From contig NZ_CP116339.1 in NCBI RefSeq assembly GCF_028198165.1, positions 1,159,001 to 1,223,000 of the forward strand: a stretch of 64,000 nucleotides of DNA. The letters run 5' to 3'. Below, one piece after another: positions 33,075-41,811 of the stretch. The stretch's first letter is position 1, and each line of letters starts with the position of its first letter. Source of the DNA: Pseudoxanthomonas sp. JBR18 (GTDB taxonomy: Bacteria > Pseudomonadota > Gammaproteobacteria > Xanthomonadales > Xanthomonadaceae). The position numbers were made by a program, and so were the translations under genes. The notes beneath the pieces were generated by a model. That model had not been told where the DNA came from and searched no databases. It saw only the letters and a list, made by a program, of their open reading frames with translations.

Positions 33075-34700
33075 ATGACACAGCACACCGATGTCGCCAT
33101 CCTCGGCGGGGGCCTGGCCGGCCTGACCCTGGCTTTGCAGCTCAAGCGCCAGGATCCGGGTATGCAGGTGCAGGTGATCGAACGTCGCCGCCACCCGGTG
33201 GCCGAAGCGGCCTTCAAGGTGGGCGAATCGACCGTGGAAATCGGTGCGCACTACCTGGCCGACGTGCTGGACCTGCGCGCCCACCTGGATGCCGAGCACC
33301 TGCGCAAGTTCGGATTCCGCTTCTTCTTCTCCGATGGGCGCCACGATGTGGACCGCTGCACCGAGGTCGGCGTCAGCCAGCTACTGCCCACGCCGTCCTG
33401 GCAGATCGACCGCGGCCGCTTCGAGAACTTCCTGGCCCGGCACGCGGCCGAGCATGGCGTGCAATTCGTCGATGGCGCCACCGTGCGCGCCATTGAGCTC
33501 GACCAGGACGATGCACCGCACCGGGTGCGCTTCGAACGCGAGGGCGCGCTGCATGCGCTGGAGGCACGCTGGGTGATCGATGCCAGCGGTCGCGCCGGCC
33601 TGCTCAAGCGCCAGCTCGACCTGGCCCAGGACAACCCGCATCAGATCCACGCGGTCTGGTGGCGCGTGGACGGCCATGTCGATCCCAACGCCTGGTCGCA
33701 GAATCCGGACTGGCTGGCGCGCTGCACCCCGCCGGACCGCTGGCGCTCGACCAACCACATGTGCGGGCCGGGCTACTGGGTGTGGCTGATTCCGCTGTCC
33801 TCGGGCGCGCATTCGCTGGGCATCGTGTGCGACACGACGATGCATCCGCTGGAATCGATGAACACCCACGCCAAGGCCATGGATTGGCTGGCGCGGCACC
33901 AGCCGCAGGTGGCCGCCACGCTCGCGCGCGAAGAGCACGTGCTGCGCGATTTCGCGTTCTTCCGCAATGTGTCCTACGGCTGCCGACAGGTGTTCGGGGA
34001 GCATCGCTGGGCGATCACCGGCGAGGCCGGGCTGTTCCTGGATCCGTTCTACTCGCCGGGCACCGACTTCATCGCCATCTCCAACACCTACGTGGCCGAG
34101 CTGATCGCACGCGACCGCGCCGGCAAGGACATCGGCGCCTACGCCAGCGTCTACAACCAGCTCTACCAGGGCTTCTACGAGAACACCCTGACCCTGTACC
34201 AAGGCCAGTACGCGCTGTTCGGCGACGCCCAGGTGATGCCGGTCAAGGTGATCTGGGACTACACCTATTACTGGTCGCTGCTCGCACCGCTGTTCTTCGC
34301 CGGGCGCCTGACCGACATTTCGCTGCTGGGCCGACTGCGGCCGCTGTTCCAGCGTGGGCGCGCGCTCAACCTGAGCGTGCAGGCCCTGCTGGCCGACTGG
34401 GGCCAGCGCAACCTCGCCGCGCCGCCCGTGCTGGAAGACGGCCGCCTACTGGACCAGTACACCATCGGCTGGTTCCACGAACTCAACCGCGCACTCAACG
34501 ATGTGCTCGACACGGACGCGCTGGCGGCGCGCCTGCAGTCCAACGTCGCGCGCATGGAGTGGCTGGCCGGGGAAATCCTCACCCGTGCGCGGCGCCAGCA
34601 TCCGGAGATCGACGACCGCGGCCTGGGCGCGCTGCTGGCCGGTACAGAGATGCCGCCGGGCCGCTCGCTGAGTGATGCCTGGTACGCGGAAGCGACTTAG
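33075..34700 (+). CDS. FAD-dependent halogenase-like oxidoreductase (candidate brominase 1)
   Basis: A 541-residue flavoprotein: GxGxxG dinucleotide motif (AILGGGLAGLTLALQL), KVGESTVEIGAHY, WVWLIP at about 235-240 (the WxWxIP motif of flavin-dependent halogenases) and ITGEAGLFLDPFYSPGTDF (the FAD-binding GD-like block). Xanthomonadins are brominated aryl polyenes, so ring bromination is the natural guess; a monooxygenase role cannot be excluded. The gene starts one base after the glycosyltransferase stop and ends the rightward operon. The foreign island begins right after its stop. Confidence 0.82.
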   Translation: MTQHTDVAILGGGLAGLTLALQLKRQDPGMQVQVIERRRHPVAEAAFKVGESTVEIGAHYLADVLDLRAHLDAEHLRKFGFRFFFSDGRHDVDRCTEVGVSQLLPTPSWQIDRGRFENFLARHAAEHGVQFVDGATVRAIELDQDDAPHRVRFEREGALHALEARWVIDASGRAGLLKRQLDLAQDNPHQIHAVWWRVDGHVDPNAWSQNPDWLARCTPPDRWRSTNHMCGPGYWVWLIPLSSGAHSLGIVCDTTMHPLESMNTHAKAMDWLARHQPQVAATLAREEHVLRDFAFFRNVSYGCRQVFGEHRWAITGEAGLFLDPFYSPGTDFIAISNTYVAELIARDRAGKDIGAYASVYNQLYQGFYENTLTLYQGQYALFGDAQVMPVKVIWDYTYYWSLLAPLFFAGRLTDISLLGRLRPLFQRGRALNLSVQALLADWGQRNLAAPPVLEDGRLLDQYTIGWFHELNRALNDVLDTDALAARLQSNVARMEWLAGEILTRARRQHPEIDDRGLGALLAGTEMPPGRSLSDAWYAEAT

Positions 34701-34768
34701 CGCGATCACCGAAAGAGGCGCAATAATTTGCGACTGAAGCTCTCTCTTCCCAAGCGCAGCACTAGGCA

Positions 34769-35211
34769 TTGAGGGAGTCCCTAGGCGTCCATTACCAGCA
34801 TTTGAGCGCCGAGGAGCAGGGTACGGTATCGGCGTTGCGGCAGCGCAAGGCCTCCATCCGCGAAGTGGGTAGCGTGCTGAATCGTGCGTCGAGCACTATC
34901 TGCCGCGCACTGCGCCGCAAGGGCGATCACGCCAGCGACCTCCTGGGCCACAGCCCCGGCTACCAGACCACTTTGCCGGCGCGCACGCCAGACGCCCGCG
35001 TCGCGGGCCATGCACCCCGCGCAAACTCGATCCTAGAGGCCGGATTTGAGCCCACGCCCACAGCCTCCTGGCCCAGCGATGTTTACCCCAACACATTGCA
35101 TGCAAGCGGAAAAACGTGTCGCAGTGTGGAATCTACGAGAACACCAACGGTCTGCTGCGCCAGACCTGCCTGAGGGCAGGACCCGGGCGTCTACTTCCAA
35201 CGCTAGCTTGA
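34769..35211 (+). mobile_element. IS30-family transposase remnant
   Basis: The first frame from a TTG at 34769 reads HYQHLSAEEQGTVSALRQRK and ASSTICRALRRKGD, the helix-turn-helix N-terminus of IS30 transposases. The middle of the protein, including the DDE catalytic residues, is missing. About 350 bp on, in another frame (35137-35163), YENTNGLLRQ appears, which is the conserved IS30 C-terminal motif, followed by further decay. It is inactive, and marks the left edge of the island between the pigment operons. No clear terminal inverted repeats were found. Confidence 0.75.
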
Positions 35212-35511
35212 TGCTATCGCCTGTAGAAATAAGTCACCGACCGCACGCACCGACGGGCTTTCGCACGCCAATGGGAGCCTTCTTCGCCCGCCCGAAAGGC
35301 CGACCGGATTGATCAGGCGTTGCTGTTGGGACTTGAAACCGCCGAAATAGTTTCACCCCATTGACTTTCAGGCGCCACGCCGAGATAGTCGAGCTGTGCC
35401 ATCAATTGACCCGCCCAGGCGAATGCACTTGAGCTCACTCACCTGGTCGATGGAACTGCGCGTTTCGATATTCAAGGTCGCGCGACGTGTCATCTTGAAA
35501 AAGGGATTTTC
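35212..35511. other. Non-coding gap upstream of the RHS gene
   Basis: No convincing gene is seen. Composition falls toward AT-richer than the flanks, and an AAGGGA ribosome site sits just upstream of the RHS start at 35512. It presumably carries the RHS promoter, but no clear -35/-10 pair could be fixed by eye. Confidence 0.4.
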
Positions 35512-38500
35512 ATGGAATTATTCGGACGGTCGCTATATACGATCCTGAGGGCACTGCCTAGATACATCTATTCGTCTTCCAAGCAAGCGATGTTAATCAT
35601 GCTGGCAATGGTGGCGACCACGCAGTATGCGATCTCCCAAGAAATCAAGACGACCTGGAAGTCGACTGACATCGGCGTCAATGTCGGCTATAGCAGCGAG
35701 CGATCGGTACAAGATGCCATACAAGTAAAGTGGAAGTCGCAGTCTCCCCCCGACGCCAAATGGACCGTCTCCTCGGTAAAAACGTCTGAGATTGAATCTA
35801 TATATTTCTATGGAATCGAGCCTGTCAATACGGCCATCGGCCCCTGGCACTACTACAGATATCACCGTAGCGGCAACACTGACATTTATCATGACGATCC
35901 TGAGGATGATCAGCAGGTGGTCGCCTACCTGGTAGGCAACATGGTGAATCTATGTGGAGCCGATACTGCGGTCGACGTTACACACGAGGGCTGGGAAAAT
36001 GCAAAAATCTTGGAGCGGGGAGATAACGGAGATTCCAAGTCCGAATCCTTGAATTACTACTATCACGCTTCTCCCACCACGACTTGTCCATCTGGATTTA
36101 ATGGATACCACACAGTCTACCGTCGACGCACGACAGACTGCTTCAAATCGAGAAAGTTGAACACATCTAGCCACATGTGCGAATCTCGGTTTGTATCGTT
36201 GAAAAGTTATTACTCTCGGCTCGTCGCGCAAAGTGACCAATGCATAGGCAACCCCTGCGATCCAACAACAGGGGATAAGCATGAGTCAGCCATCGATTTT
36301 GGACTGGACTGGATTAATTTTACCCGCCATTTCCATTCCGTCATTGGTACCGGCACTTCAGGATTCGGAGCGGGTTGGGGCCATGAACACGCGATCCGAT
36401 TAAATATTGCTGCTGATAGCGATGGCAGCTTGACAGTATCTTACATTAACCCGCAGGGCTTCCAGATTCCTTTCCGCCTACAAGGCACATCCTACTTGGC
36501 TAGTGACGGCAGCGGCGATGTACTGCGCCAGGAGAATGGCGAGTGGGTCTTGGAGCGGGCCGACCGCACCCTGTGCTTCGACGCGCAGGGCAAGGTTCTC
36601 TGGCAACGACTGGATAGCGGCCTCCAGTGGACCTACGGCTATACAGGGAAATTGCTGACCACCATTGCAGGCTCGAGCGGTCGCTCGCTGCAACTGGTCT
36701 ACGACGGCGACCAGGCAAGCGGGAAACTGACCAGCATTGCCAGTGAAGGCGTGGTCTTAGTCGCCTACGGCTACGACGCTGGCGGCATGCTGGCGACCGC
36801 TAGCTACGCGGATGGCCGCAATGTGCAGTACCACTATGAAGACCCTGCCTTTCCCGCATTGCTTACCGGGGTTACGCGCGAAGACGGGCAACGCTACAGC
36901 ACCTTTACCTATGACGCGGCGGGCAGAGCGAGCAGCACCACTCATGCCAACGGGATTGATCGATTCACACTGACCTACCCGGCGACCGGCGGTTCCATTG
37001 CGAAAGATCCGCTTGGAAATGTGACCACGTACGGATTGGTCGGCACGCCAACTGGGCGTCCACCACAGTTTTCCGGTGCAAGCGACGAGGCGGGGCAGAG
37101 CGATCGCACCTATTATCCCGAATCTGCCGATTTTCGACGCCGCCTGGATACCGAGACCGATCGCAATGGTGTGATCACCAAGCACACCTATGCCGAGGCG
37201 ACGAAGGGCACGGCGGCACTGGAGGTACATACTGTCCAGGAAGGCCAGGGACTGCCTACTCAGCGGACCACGACGACCCGGACGCTGGCCAATTTCAACC
37301 GGCGATCTTCGGTCGAATCGGATGCCCGCCTGACCTCTTACACCCGCAATGCCCGCTTGCAGCCTCTTTCGGTGATCACGACCGACCTGGACTCCGGGCT
37401 GTCACGGATGACGACATTCGCCTACTGTGAGGCCGCTGACGTATCTGCCAGCGGCAGCGTCTGCCCTATCCTGGGACTAGTGAAATCGGTCGACGGCTCG
37501 CGCACGGACGTGACCGACCTCACCCAGTACGCCTATTACCCAGCCGATGATGCCGGCTGCGCCACTGGCGGCAATTGCGCTTACCGCAAGGGAGACCTGT
37601 GGAAGGTCACCAACGCCTTGGGTCAAGTCACCGAGACCCTGGCCTACGATGCGGCCGGCCGGAAGCTGTCGGTCAAGGACCCGAATGGCATGATCACTGA
37701 CTACAGCTACAGCCCGCGCGGCTGGCTGACCGCCATCAAGCTGCGCGGCACCAACGACGATAGCGAATCGGACGACCGCATTACGACCATCGCCTACTGG
37801 CCCACTGGCTTGGTCAAGCAGCTCACCCAGTCCGATGGCGCCTTCACCGCCTACACCTACGACGCGGCCCATCGCCTGACCGATATCAGCGACAACACGG
37901 GCAACACGATCCACTACACCCTGGACAATGCGGGTAACCGGATTGCCGAAGACACCAAGGATGCCAGCGGCACACTCAAGCGCACGCTCTCACGCGTCTA
38001 CAACCAGCTCGGCCAGCTGGAGACGCACGCCGATGCCGCGGCCAACCCCACCGACTTCGGTTACGACCCCAATGGCAACAACACTGCGATCACCGATGCG
38101 CTGGGCCATATCACCCAGCAGGATTATGATCCGCTCGACCGGCTTAAGCGCACGCTGCAGGACCCGGGCGGCATTGCCGCGCAGACCCAGTTCACGTACG
38201 ACGCGTTGGATAACCTGACTCAAGTGACCGACCCCAAGGGCCTGAAGACCACCTACACCTACAATGGCTTGGGCGATCTGACCACGCTGGTCAGCCCCGA
38301 CACCGGCACCACCCGCTACACCTACGACAGCGCCGGCAACCCGGTCGGCAAGACCGATGCGCAGGGCAGGATCACCACCTACACCTACGATGCGCTCAAT
38401 CGTTTGACTGAGCAGGCTTACGCCAACACCAGCTTCAACGTCACCTATACCTACGACGCCACGCAGAGCGTGTGCGCTGCTGGTGAAACCTTCACGGTCG

Positions 38501-40239
38501 GACGCTTGAGCAAGCTGCAGGACGCCAGCGGCTTCGCGCAGTATTGCTATGACCGTTTCGGCAATCTGACCCGCAAGGTGCAGACGACCAATGGCGTCGC
38601 CTTGACGCTGCGTTATGCCTACGCACCCGGCGGCCAGCTCAGCGCGATCACTTATCCCGATGGCGCGGTAGTGGATTACCAGCACGATGCGCAAGGCCGC
38701 ACCACCGAGGTGGGCGTCACCCCCGCCGACGGCGGACGCCAGGTCCTCCTGACCGGCGCGACCTATCACGCGTTCGGTCCGGTGGCCGGCTGGATTTACG
38801 GCAATGGACGCCAGCTCAGCCGCACGTTGGATCAGGACTATCGCCCGTTGGCCATCCACGATGGTGGTCCAGGCGGCCTATCGATGGAGTTGGACTACGA
38901 CGCGGTGGGCAATGTGGATCAACTGCGTCAGGCCGGCACCACACTACCCCAGGTGAGCTTCGGCTACGACGCCTTGAACCGGCTGACTCAGTTCAAGGAT
39001 GGTCCGACCGGCGCGGTGATCGATGCCTATGGCTACGACCAGACCGGCAATCGCACCAGCGCGACCACGGCCAGCGGCACCACGCTGTATGCCTATCCGA
39101 GCAGCAGTCATCGGCTGAGCAGTGTTGGCGGTCTGACGCGCCGTTACGAAAGGACGGGCAACACCATCGGGATTAGCAGCAGCGCGCAGGATTTCTTTTA
39201 CGACCCGGCGGGGCGGATGAGCAGCGTGCGCCGGAACGGTGCGACGGTGCGCAATTACCAGTACAACGGCAAGGGCGAGCGGGTGCGCAGTTTCCTGGGC
39301 GCGGACAGCCGCTACACGCTCTACGACGAGGCCGGGCATTGGATCGGCGACTACAGCGCCAACGGCACGCCCATCCAGCAGGCGATCTGGCTGGACGATC
39401 TGCCGGTGGGTTTGCGCAACGAGGCCAGCGGAGCACTGACCTATATCGAGCCCGACCACTTGGGCAGTCCGCGCGTGGTGATCGACCCGGTGACCGACAA
39501 GGCCGTATGGAAGTGGGATCTGAAGGGTGAGGCGTTCGGCGCCACCGCGCCGGAAGAGGACCCGGATGGTGATGGCACTTCGTTCAAACTGGATATGCGG
39601 TTTCCGGGGCAGCGGTTCGACGCGGCGACGGGACTCAACTACAACTACTTCCGGGATTACGAGCCGACCACTGGGCGGTATAGCCAGAGTGATCCGATTG
39701 GGCTCGATGGTGGGATCAGTACATATGCCTATGCCGGGGGGAGTCCCATAAGCAACATTGATCCGCTTGGACTGGCCACTTGTTATTACGGGATAAGCGA
39801 AGGAGAACTGTTTTGTGTGCCAGATAGCACAGAAAACGGGGCGCCATTCGCAATCAAAGCTGCATCGGGAAATAATGGATCAGGCCTTCGCTGCAAAAAC
39901 AATCCACGTTGTACTGATCTGGCAAATCGCGGCCCGATTCCACAAGGCGATTGGAAGTGGGTGCCTGGATATACAGCAAAGCCTAACGGGCGCGTTTTGG
40001 CACCGATGCCTGGAACTGAGGATTATGGAAGAGACTTATTCCGGAGTCATAGTTGTGCGAATGCATTTGGTGCATCACTTGGCCCTAAATTTTGTTCTGA
40101 GGGATGCGTAACTGGATCAGCATCTGACATACGTAGCCTAAACAAGTTACTTGATGCCGAGCCAGGAAGCACACTTCGAGTTATCGATACTCTTAATCCG
40201 AGGCTGCCGCCGCCATTTTGGAGTGAGCTAGATGATTAA
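35512..40239 (+). CDS. Secreted RHS-repeat polymorphic toxin with Tlde1/DUF2778-like L,D-transpeptidase C-terminus
   Basis: 1575 residues. An N-terminal hydrophobic segment (about 25-43) looks like a signal peptide ending near YAIS; there is no PAAR domain. Residues 45-240 are a Cys-containing, AT-rich region of unknown fold; 245-320 resemble DUF6531 (CDPTTGDKHESAIDFG); about 400-1350 are YD/RHS repeats (YDAAGR, YDPNGN, YTYDALNRL). The RHS core ends at NIDPLGL (1415-1421), the usual toxin junction. The last 154 residues contain GPIPQGDW and an H-x15-S-x-G-C signature (His1513, Ser1529, Cys1532, around RSHSCANAFG and FCSEGCV), as in Tlde1-type L,D-transpeptidases that attack peptidoglycan crosslinking. 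The downstream gene overlaps it and is the probable immunity gene. Confidence 0.85.
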   Translation: MELFGRSLYTILRALPRYIYSSSKQAMLIMLAMVATTQYAISQEIKTTWKSTDIGVNVGYSSERSVQDAIQVKWKSQSPPDAKWTVSSVKTSEIESIYFYGIEPVNTAIGPWHYYRYHRSGNTDIYHDDPEDDQQVVAYLVGNMVNLCGADTAVDVTHEGWENAKILERGDNGDSKSESLNYYYHASPTTTCPSGFNGYHTVYRRRTTDCFKSRKLNTSSHMCESRFVSLKSYYSRLVAQSDQCIGNPCDPTTGDKHESAIDFGLDWINFTRHFHSVIGTGTSGFGAGWGHEHAIRLNIAADSDGSLTVSYINPQGFQIPFRLQGTSYLASDGSGDVLRQENGEWVLERADRTLCFDAQGKVLWQRLDSGLQWTYGYTGKLLTTIAGSSGRSLQLVYDGDQASGKLTSIASEGVVLVAYGYDAGGMLATASYADGRNVQYHYEDPAFPALLTGVTREDGQRYSTFTYDAAGRASSTTHANGIDRFTLTYPATGGSIAKDPLGNVTTYGLVGTPTGRPPQFSGASDEAGQSDRTYYPESADFRRRLDTETDRNGVITKHTYAEATKGTAALEVHTVQEGQGLPTQRTTTTRTLANFNRRSSVESDARLTSYTRNARLQPLSVITTDLDSGLSRMTTFAYCEAADVSASGSVCPILGLVKSVDGSRTDVTDLTQYAYYPADDAGCATGGNCAYRKGDLWKVTNALGQVTETLAYDAAGRKLSVKDPNGMITDYSYSPRGWLTAIKLRGTNDDSESDDRITTIAYWPTGLVKQLTQSDGAFTAYTYDAAHRLTDISDNTGNTIHYTLDNAGNRIAEDTKDASGTLKRTLSRVYNQLGQLETHADAAANPTDFGYDPNGNNTAITDALGHITQQDYDPLDRLKRTLQDPGGIAAQTQFTYDALDNLTQVTDPKGLKTTYTYNGLGDLTTLVSPDTGTTRYTYDSAGNPVGKTDAQGRITTYTYDALNRLTEQAYANTSFNVTYTYDATQSVCAAGETFTVGRLSKLQDASGFAQYCYDRFGNLTRKVQTTNGVALTLRYAYAPGGQLSAITYPDGAVVDYQHDAQGRTTEVGVTPADGGRQVLLTGATYHAFGPVAGWIYGNGRQLSRTLDQDYRPLAIHDGGPGGLSMELDYDAVGNVDQLRQAGTTLPQVSFGYDALNRLTQFKDGPTGAVIDAYGYDQTGNRTSATTASGTTLYAYPSSSHRLSSVGGLTRRYERTGNTIGISSSAQDFFYDPAGRMSSVRRNGATVRNYQYNGKGERVRSFLGADSRYTLYDEAGHWIGDYSANGTPIQQAIWLDDLPVGLRNEASGALTYIEPDHLGSPRVVIDPVTDKAVWKWDLKGEAFGATAPEEDPDGDGTSFKLDMRFPGQRFDAATGLNYNYFRDYEPTTGRYSQSDPIGLDGGISTYAYAGGSPISNIDPLGLATCYYGISEGELFCVPDSTENGAPFAIKAASGNNGSGLRCKNNPRCTDLANRGPIPQGDWKWVPGYTAKPNGRVLAPMPGTEDYGRDLFRSHSCANAFGASLGPKFCSEGCVTGSASDIRSLNKLLDAEPGSTLRVIDTLNPRLPPPFWSELDD

Positions 40240-40774
40240 AAAAATTTCTCTACCACTTTTCGGCTTGGCCGTTTTGTCCGCGGGGATTTATCTATCTGCG
40301 GGAGCGGTCGCTGCTGAAAGCGGGCGACCAGAGCGCGACCTAAATACTGCCGAAGAAGCATTAATCACCTCTTTACTGGCTCATCGAAGCAGTCAGGCTA
40401 AGTACATTTGCGTACAGAATAACTACGCATGCTTGGGAGTAGATCCAGTCGAATCCAGCATGGCGCTATTCTCAGCGAGCCAAGATCAATCCGCAAAGGA
40501 AAAACTTTTTAGTGCCATTAGATTTAAACTTGATGCAGGGGCAGCCGAGGACTTTTCTTGCTATATATCATTAATGAATCAGAACGATCTTAAACGATTA
40601 ATATCCAATTCCAATTCCCACTCCCTGATGAAAAGATGTCAAGAGGATGTACGGAGAGCCAAGAAGAGGATTGGATATCCGCTGAGTGCTGAAGCAAGTG
40701 ATGTGTGCCAAAGTGAAGAGAAGATTAAAGTGGCAATCGAGAATCTCGCTTCCTCTCCAAGATGCGGTGCATGA
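40232..40774 (+). CDS. Probable periplasmic immunity protein for the RHS toxin
   Basis: A 180-residue protein with no recognised family. A clear signal peptide (MIKKISLPLFGLAVLSAGIYLSAGAVAA, cleavage after AVAA) is followed by a mostly helical, charged domain with at least four cysteines (YICVQNNYACLG, FSCYIS, KRCQED, DVCQSEE). Its start lies 8 bases inside the RHS gene, so translation is coupled, the standard layout for toxin and immunity. Periplasmic location matches a toxin acting on peptidoglycan. Base composition is distinctly AT-rich, unlike the pigment genes. Assignment as immunity is inference from position and export signal. Confidence 0.7.
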   Translation: MIKKISLPLFGLAVLSAGIYLSAGAVAAESGRPERDLNTAEEALITSLLAHRSSQAKYICVQNNYACLGVDPVESSMALFSASQDQSAKEKLFSAIRFKLDAGAAEDFSCYISLMNQNDLKRLISNSNSHSLMKRCQEDVRRAKKRIGYPLSAEASDVCQSEEKIKVAIENLASSPRCGA

Positions 40775-41002
40775 CATGGCATATGAAACTTAATGTAATT
40801 CACATTAATAAAATTCGGGGACCGGCGTCCTTATTTTTGGTTCTTTTGGTTGTGGCTGCGGGGGGGTTGGCTAGAAGAGGATGCATGGCTTGGCGGAAGC
40901 GTGGCGACCAATACCGCCGTGGGTTGGCTTGCCATTGGCACCAGTATTACGGCTGCGGTGCTACTTTCGACGTCCTCTATCCTGAGTAGCGGTTGGGTTT
41001 AG
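40771..41002 (+). pseudogene. Small two-helix membrane protein broken at a G7 tract
   Basis: The ATG overlaps the stop of the preceding gene (ATGA), suggesting a third coupled gene. The reading frame gives MTWHMKLNVIHINKIRG and a first helix (SLFLVLLVVAAGG). At the run of seven G (40860-40866) the continuing frame becomes basic and unlike a protein, whereas dropping one G gives WLEEDAWLGGSVATNTAVGW and a second helix (AIGTSITAAVLLSTSSI) ending at 41002. Real frameshift, phase-variable tract or sequencing error are all possible. Function unknown. Confidence 0.5.
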
Positions 41003-41058
41003 AGTCTGGGGTTGATGATATCGGTGTTGGCCAGTTGTTTGACGCAGGCGGCCGGGGG

Positions 41059-41811
41059 TCAGCCCATGCCGCCATTGACGCCGATGACTTGGCCGTTGAT
41101 GTAGCCGGCCGCGTCCGAGCACAGGAAAGCCACCAGCGCGGCGACCTCTTCGGGCTTGCCGGCGCGCGCGGCCGGCACGAGTTGCTTGATCGCCTCCGGT
41201 GGGAAGGCCTGGCCGATCATCGCGCCTTCGATCACGCCGGGGGCGACGACGTTGGCGGTGATGCCGCGGCTGCCCATCTCCCGTGCCAGTGACTTGGTCG
41301 CCCCATGCAGCGCCGACTTGGCCGCCGCGTAGTTGGTCTGGCCGCGATTGCCGATCACCGCCGCCACCGAGGACACGCTCACCACCCGTCCCCAGCGCGC
41401 GCGGGCCATCGGCAGCAGCAGCGGCTGGGTGACGTTGAAGAAGCCATGCAGCGACACGTCGATGACGCGGTGCCACTGCTGCGCGCTCATGCCGGCCATC
41501 GGCGCGTCGTCATGAATGCCGGCGTTGTTGACCACGGCATGGACCGGGCCGGCTTCCAGCAGCGCCGCGATCCCCGCCGCGCTGGCCTCGGCGTCGACCA
41601 CGTCGAAGGCCACCGCCTGGGCCTGGCCGCCGGCATCAATGATCTGCTGGGCCACGCCCTGCGCCTTGGCCAGGTTGCCGTTGGCATGGACGATCACCTC
41701 AAAGCCCGCCGCACCCAGGGCCAGGCAGATCGCGCCGCCAAGATCGCCACTGCCACCGGTGACCAGGGCGCGGCGCGCGGATTTTGAAGTCTGTGCACTC
41801 ATGCGCGTCAT
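41059..41811 (-). CDS. 3-oxoacyl-ACP reductase-like SDR of the pigment cluster
   Basis: A 250-residue FabG-like short-chain dehydrogenase: TGGSGDLGGAICLAL, NNAGIHDDAP, Ser-Tyr-Lys in VSVSSVAAVIGNRGQTNYAAAK, and IGVNGGMG at the end. It would reduce the beta-keto group during polyene extension. It is the last gene of the leftward pigment operon; two REP-like elements lie between it and the dehydratase gene upstream. An alternative start (MSAQTS) is three codons in; neither has a clear ribosome site. Confidence 0.88.
   Translation of the reverse strand: MTRMSAQTSKSARRALVTGGSGDLGGAICLALGAAGFEVIVHANGNLAKAQGVAQQIIDAGGQAQAVAFDVVDAEASAAGIAALLEAGPVHAVVNNAGIHDDAPMAGMSAQQWHRVIDVSLHGFFNVTQPLLLPMARARWGRVVSVSSVAAVIGNRGQTNYAAAKSALHGATKSLAREMGSRGITANVVAPGVIEGAMIGQAFPPEAIKQLVPAARAGKPEEVAALVAFLCSDAAGYINGQVIGVNGGMG

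Follow-up and report, generated by a model that had tools for sequence, protein, structure and literature searches.

An RHS protein with a predicted Tlde1-type L,D-transpeptidase tip and an overlapping Imm57 gene in Pseudoxanthomonas sp. JBR18

In a 64,000-nucleotide stretch of the genome of Pseudoxanthomonas sp. JBR18 (contig NZ_CP116339.1, positions 1,159,001 to 1,223,000; hereafter the window), we studied a gene for a large RHS protein and the gene that overlaps its end, whose product belongs to the Imm57 family. We consider it likely that the first gene encodes a polymorphic RHS toxin and the second its immunity protein: the toxin would bear a Tlde1-type tip and be exported via Sec and type II secretion, and the Imm57 protein would serve as the antidote. 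The pair type was catalogued in 2012 and is known in kind, because Zhang et al. (PMC3482391) list Imm16 or Imm57 for Tox-LD-peptidase toxins, and RHS, type II, type VI and Tc-type as their routes. What is noteworthy is the setting: the genome has just one RHS protein and gives no match to the sheath of a type VI secretion system (T6SS). The source genome is a single contig of 4.60 Mb that is 99.7% complete. The features of the pair are as follows.

35512-40239, + strand: RHS gene, 1575 aa, ATG start, stop TAA ending at 40239
35512..35646, + strand: predicted RHS N-terminal export signal, about residues 1-45
35647..36246, + strand: Cys-rich N-terminal region, about residues 46-245, low G+C, six Cys in common with the relative P0024
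36247..36474, + strand: DUF6531, residues 246-321 (PF20148, 35.8 bits, cut-off 24.1)
36475..39774, + strand: RHS repeats (PF05593, 212.1 bits) and associated core (Rhs_assc_core, 1341-1421), ending in the DPxGL pair
39775..40239, + strand: toxin tip, residues 1422-1575, predicted Tlde1-type L,D-transpeptidase (PF10908, structural model, fold match)
40232-40774, + strand: immunity gene, Imm57 family, 180 aa, ATG start, signal-peptide-like N-terminus (PF15596, 69.9 bits, cut-off 25)

The original prediction, made from the sequence alone, had described a 1575-residue RHS reading frame followed by a gene overlapping it by 8 bases, and the coordinates, ATG starts and TAA stop all agreed, with the ATG of the Imm57 gene at 40232 and the end of the RHS gene at 40239. 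The motif AAGGGA stands upstream of the RHS ATG. All 13 RHS_repeat matches in the source genome fell within this one frame, which makes it the only RHS-repeat gene of the genome.

The tip resembles Tlde1-type L,D-transpeptidases

The tip contains GPIPQGDW at residues 1474-1481 and an H-x15-S-x-G-C motif whose His, Ser and Cys stand at the positions originally given; Cys1532, His1513, Ser1529 and Arg1507 are predicted to be catalytic, and Gly1531 is also part of the motif. The motif residues H1513, S1529, G1531 and C1532 were kept in 22/22 RHS proteins with a related tip, found in a search that covered proteins with 0.55 to 1.75 times the query's length, and also in 15/15 of a second comparison. 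Searched alone, the tip matched PF10908 (Tlde1_dom) with an E value of 7.9e-7, and because of this curated-profile match and the 22/22 conservation the resemblance goes beyond chance. In this profile check of the earlier assignment to the Tlde1 family, the score was 30.0 bits, which stands at the Pfam cut-off of 30.1 and not above it. In a six-frame search of the genome the same profile gave 25.6 bits, or 30.8 with frame neighbours, and was counted as over the cut-off.

Structure prediction yielded a tip model with a predicted local distance difference test score (pLDDT) of 86.3, for which a structure search matched the L,D-transpeptidase fold, as in Tlde1a; the Foldseek matches included mycobacterial wall enzymes of this class. 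Profile, motif conservation and predicted fold together support a Tlde1-like L,D-transpeptidase tip. Tlde1a of Salmonella (PMC9638812) and the tip have in common the family profile, which the tip matches at its cut-off, as well as the fold, the catalytic Cys and His and an Arg placed six residues ahead of the His. They differ in that Tlde1a is a small effector of the T6SS with SHGC and H-x6-S, whereas here a 154-aa RHS tip carries SEGC and H-x15-S.

The overlapping gene encodes an Imm57 protein

The assignment to Imm57 held for the query and for 11/11 aligned relatives. The predicted structure is all-helical, with a pLDDT of 83.6; confidence is low in the first 30 residues, where a hydrophobic, signal-like stretch lies, in keeping with the signal-peptide immunity protein that had been proposed. 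Imm57 proteins are characterised by a largely helical fold and by conserved D, SE and C; D101 and Cys110, 136, 159 and 178 are present here, and in the alignment the S before the E reads as Ala. Since Imm57 is already tied to L,D-peptidase toxins, being listed with Tox-LD-peptidase and Tox-Caspase in PMC3482391, an immunity role is supported. The system catalogued there resembles ours in that RHS repeats precede an L,D-peptidase with H, S and C at the C-terminus, an Imm57 gene is linked and the hosts are gammaproteobacteria; type II secretion figures among its listed routes. It is described at catalogue level only, whereas here we have a single RHS gene, no T6SS sheath match and a variable slot. 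The immunity protein Tldi1a is described as having a Sec signal (PMC9638812), which the signal-like start here resembles.

In a survey of 395 genomes of the bacterial family, Imm57 occurred 10 times, in nine genomes (L002-L011). It lay directly behind a related RHS tip at six of these loci (L005-L010) and elsewhere at four (L002, L003, L004 and L011); a wider view of the four showed that two copies lie downstream of RHS genes bearing other tips (L068, L070) and that two have no RHS within 16-18 kb (L069, L071). Among the 15 named tip loci, nine had Imm57 directly behind, and eight of these nine genes started -4 to +7 bases from the toxin stop (the start in L029 was unclear).

Some neighbourhoods are worth recording in their own right. 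In L068 (2679-10082) an RHS gene with a YkuD L,D-transpeptidase tip (27.0 bits, cut-off 23.4) is followed by an RHS remnant and then, 2.2 kb on, by Imm57, so that Imm57 is again near an L,D-transpeptidase, of another family. In G375 (L073:8907-10722) a 421-aa RHS remnant with an intact tip precedes Imm57, a toxin cassette without its carrier. Open reading frames (ORFs) without a Pfam match and with signal-like starts lie right behind the tips at L031:10492-11031, L032:10384-10866, L033:10384-10866 and L034:10180-10470; those behind L031 and behind L032-L034 are candidates for two further immunity families. Behind the RHS protein with this tip in Luteimonas gilva (L027:5699-10477) there is no immunity-like ORF, the next gene is DinB-like, and the genome has no Imm57.

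The carrier has a signal-like N-terminus and a paired DPxGL junction

At E <= 1, Pfam found in the full RHS protein RHS_repeat, DUF6531 and Tlde1_dom (at 1460-1545) and no PAAR family, as had been predicted. The NCBIfam RHS-associated core ends in DPIGL-x18-DPLGL, with the motifs at 1394-1398 and 1417-1421, so that repeats, associated core and DPxGL pair are all present; the expected toxin junction NIDPLGL was located at 1415-1422 as NIDPLGLA. C-terminal autocleavage of an Rhs protein from Photorhabdus is marked by a pair of DPLGL motifs at a distance of 17 residues, the Asp of the second motif being catalytic (PMC8636562). By analogy, the source protein may cleave itself at its own pair. T6SS PAAR-Rhs effectors (PMC8636562, PMC8765631) share with it the RHS shell and the paired DPxGL, 17 apart there and 18 here; they have a PAAR domain and a T6SS, whereas here we found no PAAR in the protein and no T6SS sheath match in the genome. 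The PAAR-Rhs proteins of Salmonella usually carry toxins that act in the cytoplasm (PMC12994826).

The predicted export signal is supported by a hydrophobic maximum around residue 28, with a mean Kyte-Doolittle value of 1.70 over 14 residues, and signal cleavage would be expected near residue 45. Also present was the Cys-rich N-terminal region noted originally, with Cys at 148, 192, 210, 223, 244 and 249. Besides the query, one relative of this region was found in the protein search (P0024, an RHS protein with a DUF4329 tip), and because this sole relative sits on an RHS protein with a different tip, the region belongs to the carrier and not to the toxin.

Delivery probably does not involve a T6SS

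In the source genome VipA gave no match, with a positive E. coli control, and VipB was absent from all six family genomes with the pair (G000, the source genome; G091, of the same genus group; and G046, G104, G252 and G375). Together with the absence of a PAAR match, this strengthened, for this genome, the proposal that delivery is apparently not by T6SS and PAAR; a T6SS is the route by which Tlde1 effectors travel. VipB was present in two of the 12 genomes searched (G115, G138); both carry other matches to Tlde1_dom, and neither is one of the nine Imm57 genomes. Ten of the 15 named tip genomes were VipB-free, three of them being G091, G104 and G046.

An N-terminal hydrophobic segment (mean >= 1.5 over 14 residues) was present in 15/22 tip-bearing proteins vs 15/399 internal blocks; seven proteins lack it, one of which, P0009, shows such a segment when its longer frame is read. 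The type II secretin GspD was over the cut-off in 5/6 family genomes with the pair, reaching 563.5 bits in the source genome (cut-off 351.35); in G091 it is split over two contigs. A precedent within the same bacterial family is Bcn-A of Xanthomonas perforans (PMC7259588), a large antibacterial protein of the RHS family that has an immunity gene linked to it, is active in the supernatant and loses this activity in an xpsD mutant. Bcn-A, likened here from its description, needs further ORFs of its locus, and another killing mode has been proposed for it. Because of GspD, the signal-like N-terminus and the Bcn-A precedent, type II export is favoured, and Sec plus type II would be the leading route.

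Several observations weigh against the reading as an exported Tlde1-type toxin with Imm57 as its antidote. With respect to the tip, the full-length RHS protein scored 22.5 bits against PF10908, under the cut-off; the second His of SHGC is replaced by Glu1530; neither tip nor immunity protein had an NCBIfam match; no PDB sequence match for the tip fell below E 0.48 (alone) or 0.68 (profile); and in Foldseek Tlde1a itself stood at E 0.027, with only one PDB row at E <= 0.001. With respect to the pairing, Imm57 lies about 3.5 kb downstream of the tip in L034, and five of the 15 named loci (L027, L030-L033) have no Imm57 behind the tip or elsewhere in the genome, L030 being at a contig end. With respect to delivery, VipB was found in five of the 15 named tip genomes (L023, L024, L026, L032, L033), so that the tip is not confined to hosts lacking a T6SS; GspL (PF05134) was not found in the source genome, a point against a complete type II system; and the RHS protein would have to enter the target periplasm without an injection machine.

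The same toxin and antidote could instead act by contact, with the RHS protein anchored on the producer surface in the manner of WapA or of contact-dependent inhibition (CDI) systems and not released by type II secretion. The lack of matches to the T6SS sheath and to GspL would suit this arrangement, and display on the surface would be in keeping with the large size of the RHS protein and its signal sequence. We nevertheless regard it as rather unlikely, as Pfam found no anchor domain in the full RHS protein and the Bcn-A precedent, from the same bacterial family, is released and type II dependent.

The pair occupies a variable slot

33075..34700, + strand: left flank, FAD-dependent enzyme gene, adjoining fabG in six congeners
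34769..35173, + strand: IS30-type transposase helix-turn-helix fragment at the left edge of the inserted stretch (PF13936, 37.3 bits, cut-off 27)
41059..41811, - strand: right flank, FabG-like reductase gene

The PF13936 fragment is one that we take to belong to IS30, and the flanking genes presumably belong to a pigment-type cluster, xanthomonadin or aryl-polyene like. The G+C content is 0.681 in the window, 0.491 in the RHS N-terminal region (residues 1-245), 0.617 in the core, 0.488 in the tip and 0.453 in the immunity gene. We compared nine congeners with a full-length left-flank orthologue (L036-L044, 67-75% identity). In six of them a fabG-like gene follows 43 to about 655 bases past the left-flank gene, a gap too short to leave room for an RHS gene; the slots of G388 and G364 hold non-RHS genes; and that of G376 holds an RHS gene that shares 64.5% identity over residues 245-1422, has an N-terminus of its own, ends in a DUF4329 tip and is followed by a small gene. 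Positions 34700-41059 of the window, flanked by the genes for the FAD-dependent enzyme and the FabG-like reductase, are thus a variable slot of the genus, being empty or holding an RHS gene with a DUF4329 tip or other genes. The unplaced relative P0024 is 69.3% identical over residues 1-1425, including the N-terminal region and the six Cys, and then has a DUF4329 tip. Carrier and tip are thus exchanged independently, as expected of a polymorphic toxin. Elsewhere, in the congener G347 (L070:8451-10037), an orphan Imm57 lies directly behind an IS30-type transposase gene, and the source pair also has an IS30-type fragment nearby.

A low-G+C insertion beside an IS30-type fragment, in a slot that lacks the locus in most congeners, might hold a decayed or silent passenger that is exported and no longer used, and relatives do hold orphan Imm57 copies and truncated RHS pieces. 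We judge this improbable given that both frames are open and full length and that all motif residues are kept. A still more improbable reading makes the tip an L,D-transpeptidase or carboxypeptidase of housekeeping type that edits the producer's own wall. Its fold is common to many cellular L,D-transpeptidases at similar Z, but it ends RHS proteins in 22/22 matches within the length range searched, is paired with an Imm57 gene, occurs rarely in the family and is missing from this slot in the nine congeners that have the flanking gene; a congener RHS protein in that slot carries a DUF4329 tip.

Proposed mechanism and implications

We propose that the RHS protein would cross the inner membrane by Sec, fold as a shell around the tip, cut the tip free at the second DPxGL motif and exit most likely by type II secretion. 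Once in a rival's periplasm, the freed tip could act on the stem peptides of peptidoglycan in the way of Tlde1a, trimming or swapping D-Ala4, which would weaken the wall; Tox-LD-peptidase toxins have been argued to hydrolyse peptidoglycan cross-links (PMC3482391). The Imm57 protein would be exported to the producer periplasm, where it would bind and block the tip. A more specific and more tentative suggestion, which we hold with limited confidence, is that of an RHS bacteriocin, secreted by type II and independent of a T6SS, which carries a peptidoglycan-editing L,D-transpeptidase into the rival periplasm, with RHS shell and Cys-rich cap handling entry and Imm57 as a dedicated inhibitor of enzymes of this class.

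In the open-access papers searched we found no experimental work on an RHS protein bearing this tip, and as far as they show the Imm57 family has been named from gene neighbourhood only. If the proposal is correct, an RHS carrier would deliver a wall-editing enzyme without a T6SS, and both the entry of RHS proteins into rivals and the neutralisation of L,D-transpeptidases by Imm57 would be testable in one two-gene system. Should Imm57 block these enzymes, it would also provide a naturally occurring inhibitor for this class of wall enzymes, mycobacterial ones among them.
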